A stretch of 35,562 bases of DNA from a virus. The notes beneath the pieces are model-generated. The model saw only the letters and a program-made list of their open reading frames with translations. It was not told where the DNA came from and did not search any database. Shown in pieces: positions 188-35,562 of the stretch; positions within the stretch are counted from its first letter, which is position 1; the number at the start of each line of letters is the position of its first letter. A program made the translations under genes and the position numbers. The stretch lies in IMG/VR virus record IMGVR_UViG_3300042509_000916, positions 1 to 35,562 of that record; one strand, given 5' to 3'.

Positions 188-376
188 ATGGACAGCCCAA
201 GATTAAAGGCCGCTCGAAATGGTGATGTTCACTATGAAGGAAGCCAATGCAGGAAATGCGGGACCACGGCCAAATACACCAGCACAGGCAATTGTGTTCA
301 GTGCATCAAAACTGCAAACGTAGAGAAGCGGAAGAAAGTTAGAGAACTTCTGGCGCAAGCAAGGGCGGCGGCATGA
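188..376 (+). CDS. Small zinc-ribbon protein
   Basis: This is a 62-residue protein with two CxxC knuckles, CRKC near residue 20 and CVQC near residue 36, followed by a basic, probably helical tail (VEKRKKVRELLAQARAAA). The spacing fits one zinc-binding ribbon. Similar short CxxC-CxxC proteins occur widely in phage early regions, some related to HNH/endonuclease VII-type zinc ribbons, but no catalytic residues are visible here. I chose ATG 188 because AGGA lies just upstream (181-184); an in-frame TTG at 161 has no good ribosome site and overlaps the predicted -10. The stop overlaps the next start (ATGA at 373-376), which implies translational coupling with the replication gene. Function is unknown; DNA or RNA binding is likely. 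Confidence 0.8.
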   Translation: MDSPRLKAARNGDVHYEGSQCRKCGTTAKYTSTGNCVQCIKTANVEKRKKVRELLAQARAAA

Positions 377-1137
377 AGCTAATTTGGTATGCCTTCAACC
401 CTGCGGATTACGCCAGAGACACGGCGCATCTGTCCATTCTTGAGCATGGAGCCTATCGACTTTTGCTCGATCACTACTATCTGACCGGCGTTCCATTGCC
501 TGCAAGTGCAGTGCATTTGCATCGCGTTTGCAGGGCGTTTGCAGAAGAGGAGCAGGCAGCTTTGCATAGCGTTTTGCATCAGTTCTTTACTTTGACTGAT
601 GACGGGTGGAGGCATGAGCGGGTCGAGGCTGAACTTGCGAAAAGTGGGGATATCAGCAAAAAACGTAAGCAGGCTGCAGAGTTACGTCACAAAAAGGCTA
701 AATCTGAGCCTGTGGAAAACCATGCAAATGCATGTGCAAATGCAGATGCAAATGCAATGCAAATGGACACACAATTACAATTACAATTACAAAAAGATAT
801 ATCTACTACTAACGTAGTAGATATTATTACCCCGCAAGCACGGAAGCGAAGGATTCCGGAAGACTTCTACCCAAACGAAGCCGGAATCAAGAAGGCAGAA
901 AAGGCAGGAATCAACATACAAGCCGAAGTTGAAGCGTTCAAGGATTACCACGCGGGCAAAGGGAACACGATGCTTGACTGGCAGGCCGCATGGCGTACAT
1001 GGGTTGGCAATGCAGTTAAGTTCAAAGCAAGCAAGCCGAACGGAGCATTTCAGACGGCAAGCGAAAAAAGAGCAGATCGCGTTAGACAACTCACTGGAGA
1101 ATCACATGACAGCCATTTCATCATTGAACACCACTGA
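373..1137 (+). CDS. DUF1376 protein, candidate O-like replication initiator
   Basis: This 254-residue protein starts MKLIWYAFNPADYARDT and has the DUF1376 (YdaU-like) N-terminal domain over about residues 1-95. The family sits in phage replication modules and resembles a winged helix. Residues about 115-140 are a low-complexity stretch rich in Asn, Ala, Met and Gln. The C-terminal half (RRIPEDFYPNEAGIKKA onward, to WRTWVGNAVKFK) resembles the C-terminal domain found in many phage replication proteins. The gene is followed by a lambda-P-like gene, the O-P order of lambda. Its own DNA carries two phased repeat clusters, an AT-rich repeat and an inverted repeat (516-824), again as in lambda O, where the origin lies inside the initiator gene. 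Origin binding by this protein is therefore my inference. It overlaps the next gene by 32 bases. Confidence 0.85.
   Translation: MKLIWYAFNPADYARDTAHLSILEHGAYRLLLDHYYLTGVPLPASAVHLHRVCRAFAEEEQAALHSVLHQFFTLTDDGWRHERVEAELAKSGDISKKRKQAAELRHKKAKSEPVENHANACANADANAMQMDTQLQLQLQKDISTTNVVDIITPQARKRRIPEDFYPNEAGIKKAEKAGINIQAEVEAFKDYHAGKGNTMLDWQAAWRTWVGNAVKFKASKPNGAFQTASEKRADRVRQLTGESHDSHFIIEHH
516..578. repeat. Iteron cluster 1: five phased TTTGCA sites
   Basis: TTTGCA occurs at 516, 527, 538, 561 and 573. The steps are 11, 11, 23 and 12 bases, so all sites fall on nearly the same helix face, with one position skipped. Several copies share the longer form GCGTTTGCA. The orientation is opposite to the second cluster at 723-765. 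Inside a replication gene this looks like initiator binding sites. Confidence 0.7.
723..765. repeat. Iteron cluster 2: four phased TGCAAATG sites
   Basis: TGCAAATG occurs exactly at 723, 735, 747 and 758, with steps of 12, 12 and 11 bases. The core TGCAAA is the reverse complement of the sites in cluster 1. The repeats account for the Asn/Ala/Met-rich low-complexity stretch in the encoded protein, suggesting that the DNA element constrains the protein here. Confidence 0.8.
772..789. repeat. AT-rich triple hexamer repeat (candidate unwinding element)
   Basis: CAATTA is repeated three times in tandem (772-777, 778-783, 784-789), followed by an A-run and ATATATC. It encodes an alternating Gln-Leu run. 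Its position directly after the iterons matches the AT-rich segment that melts first at iteron-type origins. Confidence 0.7.
799..824. repeat. 11-bp perfect inverted repeat
   Basis: ATATCTACTAC (799-809) and GTAGTAGATAT (814-824) are perfect reverse complements around a TAAC loop. It closes the iteron/AT-rich block, as the inverted repeat does at the lambda origin. Confidence 0.85.
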
Positions 1138-1693
1138 CACAAAAACGCTGCCCGTCGCATGGGTAGAGCGAATCTTTAAGCTGATGACCATGTATCACGG
1201 AAATCGGTTTGCAGACCAATTCGACGGAATGAACCTGAGCGAGGTAAAACAATTTTGGGCGGAACAACTGGCAGAGTTCACGCCAGAGGAACTTAAAAAC
1301 GGGTTATATGCTGCGGAACGCACGAAATGGCCTCCGACACTGGCAGAGTTCAAGTCAATGTGTCGCCCAGAGTTGCAGTATGAGGTTTTATACGCTGAAG
1401 CCTGCAAAGGAATTTATGCTCGGCGCATGGGGTCAAATTTCGATTGGAGTCACCCTGCCGTTTTTTTTGCCGCCTGCGATATGGCACACGAAATCATGAA
1501 CGATACCTACAAAGCGAATAGAACGCGCTGGGAGGCTTGCCTAGACAAGGCTATGTCCATGCATAGGCAAAGCCCTTTGAGCGTCCCTGAGCCGTTCCTA
1601 TCGCTTCCTGAGCCTGTTAAAAACCTAGAAGTTGGGCGTAAAGCGATGGAAGGCATGAGAGACGTGCTTGCAAAAATGAAAAGGGGTGCGTGA
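1106..1693 (+). CDS. Lambda P-like replication protein (putative helicase loader)
   Basis: This 195-residue protein has the pattern of the phage replication protein P family: VERIFKLMTMYHGNRFADQF near residue 20, then FWAEQLAEFTPEEL and RTKWPPTLAEFKSMCRP over about residues 50-90. Members bring the host replicative helicase (DnaB) to the origin. ATG 1106 was chosen because GGAGA precedes it (1096-1100) and the family signature begins soon after; the frame stays open upstream to 929 without a good start. The gene overlaps the 3' end of the DUF1376 gene by 32 bases, and its stop overlaps the next start, so the two replication genes are probably translated together. Helicase loading is inferred from the family and gene order. 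Confidence 0.8.
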   Translation: MTAISSLNTTDTKTLPVAWVERIFKLMTMYHGNRFADQFDGMNLSEVKQFWAEQLAEFTPEELKNGLYAAERTKWPPTLAEFKSMCRPELQYEVLYAEACKGIYARRMGSNFDWSHPAVFFAACDMAHEIMNDTYKANRTRWEACLDKAMSMHRQSPLSVPEPFLSLPEPVKNLEVGRKAMEGMRDVLAKMKRGA

Positions 1694-31213: not shown

Positions 31214-31864
31214 TTACTTGTTTGCTGCTGCTCGGATTTTTGCTTCGATGCTGTCTACATACGCCAAAAATTTGCGTGTTTTCTGGTCAATGTCTGACAT
31301 TTCTGATTCGTCACGCTCAAATCGAGTTACGAATAGGTCAAGACCTGCCCTGCTAAGTCGAGGGTCATAAACACCGATATCGACCCACTGCAGATTGCAG
31401 ATATACATCTGAAACTTGCACTGCTGTTCGTAGTCCGACACATCGCCAGTTGCCCATATTTCAGCAACCTTCGTTTGACTGAACGGGCATTTAATTTCCA
31501 ATGCGCCGATGGGCTTTCCATCGTCATCGCAGATAAGCCTATCGGGGCTACAACCGGCCGACAGTTCACCGTGAAATACAAACCCGACACTGGTAAGGAT
31601 TTGACCTGTACGAACCTCATACGCATCAGCAGCAAGTGATTCGTTGTCTTTGCCCCATTGCGTGGCTGTGTTGCCGACGAAGTTATCGCACAGGCTTCCG
31701 GTAATACGTTCCAAGGCCAGTTTGTGCGCCAGCGTTTTACCTGCTGCTGTCATCGAGCCATCTTTTTTAACGGACAGAAAATCAGCCGCATTGGAGGCCG
31801 ACAGAACACCGGTACGGATAGCAAGCCATTCGGCGGATCCCTGCTCAACGTTGATGATTTTCAT
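31214..31864 (-). CDS. YqaJ-type viral recombinase (lambda exonuclease family)
   Basis: In this 216-residue protein the catalytic core is visible: Asp108 in CSPDRLI and Glu123-x-Lys125 in GALEIKCPF, with QWGKDNE (Glu75) and QQCKFQMYICN, all characteristic of the lambda exonuclease/YqaJ fold. It degrades one strand of double-stranded DNA from the 5' end and gives the single strand used by Bet. It directly follows bet (6 bases between stop and start), so the pair forms a Red-type recombination module that could repair, circularise or diversify phage DNA. Confidence 0.93.
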   Translation of the reverse strand: MKIINVEQGSAEWLAIRTGVLSASNAADFLSVKKDGSMTAAGKTLAHKLALERITGSLCDNFVGNTATQWGKDNESLAADAYEVRTGQILTSVGFVFHGELSAGCSPDRLICDDDGKPIGALEIKCPFSQTKVAEIWATGDVSDYEQQCKFQMYICNLQWVDIGVYDPRLSRAGLDLFVTRFERDESEMSDIDQKTRKFLAYVDSIEAKIRAAANK

Positions 31865-31870
31865 GGTTGA

Positions 31871-32689
31871 TTACTCCCCGAAAAAATCGCTGACGGTTTT
31901 ATCCATGTCGGAAAAGAACTGTTTTGTTTCTGAGGCCTCGACCGGTTCTGCTTCGATGGTCCTGTCTTTGTCAGCCTGCGTTGCGATGGCTTTCCTGCGA
32001 TTGTGCGCCTCGGTGCCGTATGCTTTGCGCTGTGCTGGGGTGAGTTCCTTCCAGAAAGCCTGGTATGCCTGAACACCCTTTGATGCAGCATCGTCCGCAG
32101 GTACACGCATTTCCTCGGTTTCCTGAGCGATTTGCTCATTTCCAAGCGCGTCAATTTCCTTGACCATCTGCTGATTTACAGATTCGGCAATGCGGTCGGC
32201 TTCGTCTGCGTCATAGATACCTGCGAAACCGAAAGCAAGACGAGCACACTGAATCAGTGCCTTGTGTCGCAGCATACGCTTTGGGTGTGACTGCCACGGT
32301 TGTGCACTGCGTTTGCATTCGCTCATGTATTCGGTGACCGTGGTTGGGTGACTGCGGTCTTTGCGGTACATAATGCAAGTACAGGATTCATCGTCCTGCC
32401 TGAATTCCATACCATCGAATTGCGGGTGCTGATTGATGATTCGTGCCCAACCATCGACAGACACAACAGGCACAATACCTGCGTTACGGTCTGGGAAAGC
32501 GTAAATCTCTTTTGTCCAAGGGTTGAGGCCGTATTGGTTAGAAACAATCAGAAGCGCGGCGAGCTGTGAATCTGATACCTGACCTTTGAAGGCTGTCGCT
32601 TTCAGTGTTGTTACAAGTTCATCTCCTGCTCCTGTCAGGCCGAGTGCGTCTGCGAGCTTGTTTGCTTGGGCTACTACGATGTTGCTCAT
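31871..32689 (-). CDS. bet: Bet/RecT-family single-strand annealing protein
   Basis: This 272-residue protein has the Bet/RecT family pattern LNPWTKEIYAFPDRNAGIVP (about residues 55-74), VSVDGWARIINQHPQFDGME and the helix PKRMLRHKALIQCARLAFGF (about 136-155). It anneals complementary single strands made by the neighbouring YqaJ exonuclease. The C-terminal 80 residues are variable, acidic and end DKTVSDFFGE, an acidic tail with terminal aromatic residues that may recruit single-strand binding protein partners. GGAGGA precedes the ATG. Confidence 0.94.
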   Translation of the reverse strand: MSNIVVAQANKLADALGLTGAGDELVTTLKATAFKGQVSDSQLAALLIVSNQYGLNPWTKEIYAFPDRNAGIVPVVSVDGWARIINQHPQFDGMEFRQDDESCTCIMYRKDRSHPTTVTEYMSECKRSAQPWQSHPKRMLRHKALIQCARLAFGFAGIYDADEADRIAESVNQQMVKEIDALGNEQIAQETEEMRVPADDAASKGVQAYQAFWKELTPAQRKAYGTEAHNRRKAIATQADKDRTIEAEPVEASETKQFFSDMDKTVSDFFGE

Positions 32690-35055: not shown

Positions 35056-35234
35056 TGCGATCAGAGGCACTTAAAAAAGCCCAGGACAAGTATCTGGCCA
35101 AGCAGCCGCCAGTGGTGTCTATTCGCTTTAACTGGCGACAGTGGGAGGCACTACAGGCCGCAGCCGGTGACGAAAAAATTGCTGCACTGGTCAAGCGGGT
35201 GGCGTTGGAGAGCGTCGGGCAGGCTAGCGGGTGA
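35052..35234 (+). CDS. Small ribbon-helix-helix-like protein
   Basis: This 60-residue protein begins MMRSEALKKAQDKYLAKQPP, then has VVSIRFNWRQWEALQAAAGD and IAALVKRVALESVG. A short strand followed by two helices is the RHH (Arc/MetJ) layout; the strand VSIRF would contact DNA. RHH function is an inference. The ATG overlaps the previous stop. Its 3' end is also present as 2-130. Confidence 0.72.
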   Translation: MMRSEALKKAQDKYLAKQPPVVSIRFNWRQWEALQAAAGDEKIAALVKRVALESVGQASG

Positions 35235-35237
35235 TTG

Positions 35238-35265
35238 TTGCCTGTTGGCTTGGTTGTGTTATGAT
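35238..35265 (+). promoter_or_regulatory. Predicted promoter, second copy of 134-161
   Basis: The same TTGCCT-16-TGT-TATGAT arrangement as at 134-161, in the second repeat copy. Confidence 0.5.
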
Positions 35266-35291
35266 TGTCACTGTTAAAACACGGAGGAAAA

Positions 35292-35480
35292 ATGGACAGC
35301 CCAAGATTAAAGGCCGCTCGAAATGGTGATGTTCACTATGAAGGAAGCCAATGCAGGAAATGCGGGACCACGGCCAAATACACCAGCACAGGCAATTGTG
35401 TTCAGTGCATCAAAACTGCAAACGTAGAGAAGCGGAAGAAAGTTAGAGAACTTCTGGCGCAAGCAAGGGCGGCGGCATGA
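35292..35480 (+). CDS. Small zinc-ribbon protein, second copy of 188-376
   Basis: Identical to the gene at 188-376, inside the second copy of the terminal repeat. On a circular genome it is the same gene. It carries the two CxxC knuckles and overlaps the following start by 4 bases. Confidence 0.85.
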   Translation: MDSPRLKAARNGDVHYEGSQCRKCGTTAKYTSTGNCVQCIKTANVEKRKKVRELLAQARAAA

Positions 35481-35562
35481 AGCTAATTTGGTATGCCTTC
35501 AACCCTGCGGATTACGCCAGAGACACGGCGCATCTGTCCATTCTTGAGCATGGAGCCTATCG
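35477..35562 (+). CDS. DUF1376 protein, 5' part (complete copy at 373-1137)
   Basis: The first 28 codons of the initiator candidate, cut by the window end. The sequence is identical to 373-458. Confidence 0.9.
   Translation, partial: MKLIWYAFNPADYARDTAHLSILEHGAY

Follow-up and report, generated by a model that had tools for sequence, protein, structure and literature searches.

Part of a DUF1376 gene in the phage record IMGVR_UViG_3300042509_000916 forms, with an estimated probability of about 0.87, the theta-replication origin of the phage, which would then lie, as in lambda, within the initiator gene. Judged from the sequence, the segment is very probably the place where this temperate phage starts copying its DNA. 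The design is lambda-like with a different initiator domain, and its function in replication is predicted. In-gene origins are already known from lambda and from pSK41-type plasmids (PMC3155836). As far as the searchable literature shows, two aspects appear to be new: the probable role of DUF1376 as the origin-recognition domain of a family of in-gene origins, and a lineage-restricted second cluster of putative sites within the codons for the DUF1376 helices.

DUF1376/YdaU is widespread, lacks an assigned function, and receives only passing mention in the literature searched (searches on both names returned no paper on replication by title or abstract); it gains here a candidate function, iteron recognition at an in-gene origin. 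The arrangement also suggests a rule for locating phage and prophage origins from sequence alone, namely, a DUF1376 linker with 11-bp-spaced repeats adjoining AT-rich repeats. Relatives with exchanged C-terminal domains and varied iterons provide a natural set for studying the recombination of initiator specificity and helicase loading, and a site cluster in the codons of a predicted recognition helix would be an unusual overlapping code, open to synonymous recoding.

Genome context

The window (the whole 35,562-nt stretch analyzed) is a nearly complete phage genome. Its ends overlap, with positions 1 to 458 repeating positions 35105 to 35562 (offset 35,104) apart from one difference near position 128. 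The end repeat indicates that the record, though classed as linear, is a complete genome of about 35.1 kb that either closes into a circle or is terminally redundant. On the circle, short rightward early genes precede the initiator gene. A RusA-like resolvase gene is located at 2128 to 2568, and genes for a Bet/RecT-like annealing protein and a RecE-like exonuclease are located on the minus strand at 31214 to 32689. Rfam and tRNA searches of the window found nothing. GC skew reflects the direction of the genes and does not locate the origin.

Initiator and loader genes

The coordinates of all features are given in Table 1. The initiator gene product matches DUF1376 (PF07120) over aa 5 to 89 (E = 6e-28; 97.4 bits against a gathering cutoff of 30.1), and no other Pfam family matched its N-terminal domain. 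PHROG 3992, named "primosomal protein," matches the product at E = 3e-37, while PHROGs 1408 and 1032, named "replication initiation protein," match only its second half (aa ~98 to 228). The N-terminal domain of the lambda O family was not matched in Pfam or by these PHROG hits, and RepA_N (PF06970) gave no Pfam match at E = 0.01.

The N-terminal domain was modeled confidently by AlphaFold (pLDDT of >90 over most of aa 11 to 80), with predicted helices at aa 22 to 38, 46 to 53, and 58 to 71 and a small wing at aa 72 to 80. Structural comparison gave middling Z scores of 6.3 with ORC2, about 5 with RepA_N N-terminal domains, and 4.4 with the DnaD N-terminal domain; the VIA Z scores against RepA_N (5.0 for 4pql, 4.9 for 4pt7, and 4.9 for 5kbj) are level with those of many unrelated winged helices. 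The model resembles the winged helices of replication initiators, and because the fold matches are weak (Z of ~5 to 6) and Foldseek returned no significant E value for the full-length or domain models, the predicted winged helix of aa 6 to 87 is supported as a fold class and not as a family. Sequence searches of the PDB found nothing convincing for the protein and no match for its DnaT part.

In the C-terminal half, aa 156 to 220 resemble the single-stranded DNA-binding domain of DnaT at middling VIA Z scores of 5.8 and 5.4, and the window protein has no Pfam DnaT (PF17948) match. Relative L017 has a Pfam DnaT domain at the matching place. This domain is predicted to be a single-strand-binding or loader-contact module, and the DUF1376 protein is most probably an O-like initiator. 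An initial annotation, made from the letters of the window, had placed a P-like gene after the DUF1376 gene, and this was borne out by a match of the downstream product to PHROG 109, "P-like helicase loader" (E = 3e-16); Pfam Phage_lambda_P also matched, under its cutoff (E = 3.7e-4).

Table 1. Features of the predicted origin region, in window coordinates
Feature	Positions	Strand	Basis
Putative initiator gene (254 aa): DUF1376/YdaU domain, linker, DnaT-like domain	373..1137	+	Pfam, PHROG, AlphaFold model
DUF1376 domain codons, predicted winged helix	385..639	+	Pfam, AlphaFold, fold comparisons
Predicted helix-turn-recognition helix codons (aa 46-71), overlapping cluster 1	508..585	+	AlphaFold and site coordinates
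Iteron cluster 1, reversed: TTTGCA at 516, 527, 538, 561, 573	516..578	-	Sequence; recoding test; kept in L017 and L020
Single DnaA-box-like TTTTCCACA beside cluster 2	711..719	-	One of 6 in the window
Iteron cluster 2: TGCAAATG at 723, 735, 747, 758	723..765	+	Direct sequence; family-wide 11/22/33-bp linker periodicity
AT-rich tandem repeat, CAATTA x3 (772, 778, 784), proposed DNA-unwinding element	771..792	+	Sequence; low duplex stability; family repeats
Perfect 11-bp inverted repeat, arms 799-809 and 814-824, 4-nt gap	799..824	.	Direct sequence
Predicted C-terminal DnaT-like domain codons (aa 156-222)	838..1038	+	Fold match to DnaT; Pfam DnaT at this place in L017
P-like helicase loader gene, overlapping the end of the initiator gene	1106..1693	+	PHROG 109, Pfam

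Repeat elements

The positions given in the initial annotation for TTTGCA, TGCAAATG, CAATTA, and the inverted repeat are all exact. TGCAAA/TTTGCA occurs at 57 sites on both strands of the 35.5-kb window, and 9 of these fall within 300 bp here. When duplex stability was computed across the whole genome, the 70-bp interval starting at 760 was the second least stable of 35,492; together with its place beside the iterons, this supports the AT repeat as the likely opening site, as had been proposed. The further claim that every site lies on one helix face was overstated, since spacings of 11, 11, 23, and 12 bp in cluster 1 and 12, 12, and 11 bp in cluster 2 drift at 10.5 bp per turn by ~4.5 bp (~150 degrees) and 3.5 bp (~120 degrees), respectively.

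In many relatives the AT element repeats a CAA-type unit of 6 bp with a strand bias (CAATTA in the window, CAATCA in L313, CCAACA or CCAATA in L005 and L093, and ACAACC in L181 and L182). The strand bias suggests a single-strand recognition element, beyond mere AT-richness. The DnaA-box-like TTTTCCACA ends 3 bp ahead of the first cluster 2 iteron; no counterpart was seen at the matching place of L017, and the box may be a chance occurrence.

Iteron recognition

Relatives were obtained by protein-guided scans of virus contigs (L003 to L016, L019 to L098, L101 to L179, and L180 to L234). C-terminal domains are swapped freely among them. Iteron similarity was correlated with DUF1376 similarity when the C-terminal domain was held fixed (partial Mantel r = 0.19, p = 0.001) and was uncorrelated with C-terminal similarity when DUF1376 was held fixed (r = -0.03, p = 0.83). 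An iteron word was held in common by 62% of pairs alike only in DUF1376, compared with 19% of pairs alike only in the C terminus and a background of 22%. The DUF1376 domains of the window protein and L017 are 74% identical, and their iterons have a common TGCAA core; of the two, only L017 has a Pfam DnaT C terminus. It is the DUF1376 domain, and not the C-terminal domain, that iteron sequence follows, which supports the earlier assignment of DUF1376 as the probable iteron-recognizing part; because the iterons lie next to the DUF1376 codons on the DNA, part of the association is due to common descent.

The upstream reversed cluster

Cluster 1 lies in opposed orientation ~145 bp from cluster 2. 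When the codons for aa 40 to 72 were redrawn synonymously from the window's own large genes, only 1 of 20,000 recodings reached at least five TTTGCA sites (p = 5e-5). In a first set of 76 DUF1376 genes, 400 seven-mers of these codons recur in the linker of the same gene, where synonymous recoding predicts 194 ± 17 (z = 12.4), compared with z = 1.9 and z = 4.9 for the preceding and following segments; these genes are related and hence not independent, and the z scores overstate the evidence. Sharing with the gene's own linker also exceeds sharing with the linkers of other genes.

Cluster 1 sites occupy equivalent codon positions in three of the genes, with reverse-strand starts at 26, 37, 48, 71, and 83 in the window, 26, 37, and 48 in L020, and 27, 38, and 49 in L017 (scored with a one-base shift of the motif). 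L043 and L091, whose iteron is the unrelated TAACC, have reverse-strand starts at 26, 37, 48, and 59 and at 26, 37, 43, 48, and 59, respectively. L279, L181, and L313 have forward iterons as well, in or beside an extra loop just ahead of the helix-turn-helix region, and both clusters of L313 contain the pattern word of the iteron-pair search. In L279 (1290 to 1370, minus strand), five forward TGCAA sites at 12-bp spacing are followed by three reversed sites, and the TGCAA run enlarges the DUF1376 domain with an additional (NAPA)n loop immediately ahead of helix 2. Read by eye, L181 and L182 seem to have TACAA in place of TGCAA, with the change made jointly in the two clusters.

The cluster is not general. 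A hold-out of 53 further DUF1376 genes gave no cluster 1 signal at the original settings (126 shared against 123 expected, z = 0.2), and extending the linker after the fact yielded z = 2.4, which did not exceed the value for the control segment; this failure rules out cluster 1 as a family-wide trait. It is missing from most TGCAAATG-bearing relatives and from many DUF1376 genes. Among TGCAA-bearing relatives other than the window, L279, and L313, the combined excess was marginal (9 against 5.3, p = 0.055), and a mod-11 ladder test on the remaining genes did not give a clean result. We conclude that in some lineages, including that of the window, cluster 1 is real and selected at the DNA level, and that it does not characterize the family as a whole. 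Of the second, reversed iteron set described in the initial annotation, the DNA-level signal therefore stands, restricted to certain lineages.

Two other readings of cluster 1 were weighed. In one, cluster 2 and the AT repeat make up the origin, and cluster 1 does nothing, having arisen through codon choice, gene conversion, or common ancestry; the signal-free hold-out and the marginal excess in TGCAA-bearing relatives fit this account. However, it has to accommodate five sites in the window that recoding almost never reproduces, seven-mer sharing in the first set far above that of the preceding segment, starts at matching codon positions even with an unrelated iteron, and the apparent joint change of letters in L181 and L182, and we regard it as unlikely. 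The other, raised as a possibility in the initial annotation, is a more specific form of the origin reading, in which the two clusters are brought together through looping of the DNA or through handcuffing. Plasmid iterons are an established case of handcuffing, and the opposed orientation and separation of the clusters would suit it. The length of the protein domain sets the distance between them, however, so conservation of that distance is not independent evidence, and this specific form is likewise doubtful.

A further reading, rated at somewhat below even odds, is that in several DUF1376 phage lineages the initiator gene carries its own binding sites in duplicate, in the linker and, in reverse orientation, in the codons of the DNA-recognition helix. 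A shift in specificity would alter both copies together, and the second would be a built-in control site (acting by titration, bridging, or autoregulation) that couples initiator expression to origin firing.

Conservation among relatives

The layout of the window recurs over ~125 other DUF1376 genes, in which 11-bp-spaced iterons are followed by AT-rich repeats and usually by a helicase or loader gene. Among 73 genes of the first non-redundant set, 39 had linker repeats at a lag of 11 bp, 36 at 22 bp, and 25 at 33 bp, and the segment after the linker carried AT-rich repeats of 6, 7, 12, or 14 bp. The independent hold-out reproduced the lag of 11 bp in 23 of 53 genes and that of 22 bp in 18 of 53. 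A DNA-only search with the iteron pair TGCAAATGCANNTGCAAATGCA returned 88 virus contigs (L235 to L322), 20 of which have DUF1376, with the match inside that gene in 19 of the 20; the letter-reversed control pattern returned 8 contigs, none with DUF1376. One short contig, L314, carries two DUF1376 open reading frames (614 to 1243 and 1913 to 2167).

Genes downstream of DUF1376 encode P-like loaders (L017, L004, and L066), DnaC-like loaders (L005 and L026), or DnaB-like helicases (L091 and L071); those of three other relatives had weak or no matches. These neighbors bear on a reading in which the sites are operators, bound by the DUF1376 protein or another factor to regulate early-operon transcription, with the true origin elsewhere. 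Winged-helix domains are common in transcription regulators, and in-gene sites could serve as a roadblock. Such a reading is nonetheless very improbable, as the sites of the relatives lie next to AT-rich repeats and a gene for a helicase or loader, the genes are ordered as in lambda O-P, and the C-terminal domains resemble O or DnaT.

Since 11 is not a codon multiple, the linker periodicity belongs to the DNA and points to selection on DNA. In L020, GCAAA repeats are kept at 12-bp spacing in a reading frame that differs from that of the window and yields a different peptide, and L017 combines the iteron core of the window with an Ala/Ser peptide. The comparison of related loci proposed in the initial annotation thus comes out in its favor, with the spacing kept while the protein differs, and the view that the iterons force the low-complexity stretch on the protein is supported. 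The DUF1376 frame of L020 (56 to 420), taken as it stands in the record, is broken just ahead of its intact linker iterons, by a sequencing error or in a broken gene. That the repeats are instead a protein feature, a low-complexity Asn/Ala/Gln linker in which the iterons are only apparent, is hardly credible: the stretch does encode HANACANADANAMQM and QLQLQLQ and such linkers are common, but the 11-bp lags, the changed frame and peptides of L020 and L017, and a cluster 1 that exceeds synonymous recoding within a folded, conserved domain all argue against it.

Proposed mechanism

In the favored reading of the segment as an in-gene origin, DUF1376 winged-helix domains would bind the TGCAAATG iterons of the linker-coding DNA and assemble there. 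The adjoining CAATTA and inverted-repeat DNA, judged by where it lies and by its low duplex stability, would be strained and opened by the assembled proteins. Fold and gene order suggest that the DnaT-like C-terminal domain then holds the exposed single strand, hands it to the P-like loader, or both, and that this loader loads the host DnaB helicase, as in the lambda model (PMC7466680, PMC6022878). Cluster 1, in the helix-turn-helix codons, would be a second set of initiator sites. Most likely it would regulate or strengthen initiation through extra initiator loading, titration, or bridging; autoregulation is also possible.

Comparison with known systems

The initial annotation had likened the segment to the lambda origin, and the iterons, meltable AT DNA, and order of the loader gene support a lambda-like origin inside the probable initiator gene. 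The lambda origin and the predicted origin of the window are equally far from the start codon of the gene that contains them (annotated lambda iterons at nt 349 to 433 of gene O, with P next; window cluster 2 at nt 351 to 393 of its gene). In both, iterons precede AT-rich DNA and a P gene follows, and the predicted plan of the window protein, a DNA-binding N-terminal part, a flexible linker, and a loader-contacting C-terminal part, is that of O (PMC7466680, PMC6022878). The window differs from lambda in its DUF1376 N-terminal domain and in its iteron spacing (11 to 12 bp, compared with 20 to 24 bp in lambda), and the test applied to cluster 1 shows no upstream cluster in lambda O.

The RepA_N initiators of plasmids pSK41 and pTZ2162 and PLE RepA have an iteron-binding N-terminal domain and a C-terminal domain that differs between hosts (PMC7145576), and pSK41-type plasmids have oriV within the initiator gene (PMC3155836). 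The window system would likewise have an iteron-binding N-terminal domain, a variable C-terminal domain, and an in-gene origin, with a weak fold resemblance (Z of ~5) that many unrelated winged helices equal. It differs in having no sequence match to RepA_N and in lying in a phage early operon with a P-like loader. The PHROG label "primosomal protein" agrees with the DnaT-like prediction for the C-terminal domain; it is silent on the iterons, the origin, and the role of DUF1376.

In the Rac prophage of Escherichia coli, ydaU is a DUF1376 gene followed by a gene for a putative ATP-binding protein (ydaV). Cluster 1 is not significant in ydaU, unlike in the window, and its linker carries GATGTT(C/G)AA repeats. 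The Rac prophage has an active origin, oriJ (PMC3945230).
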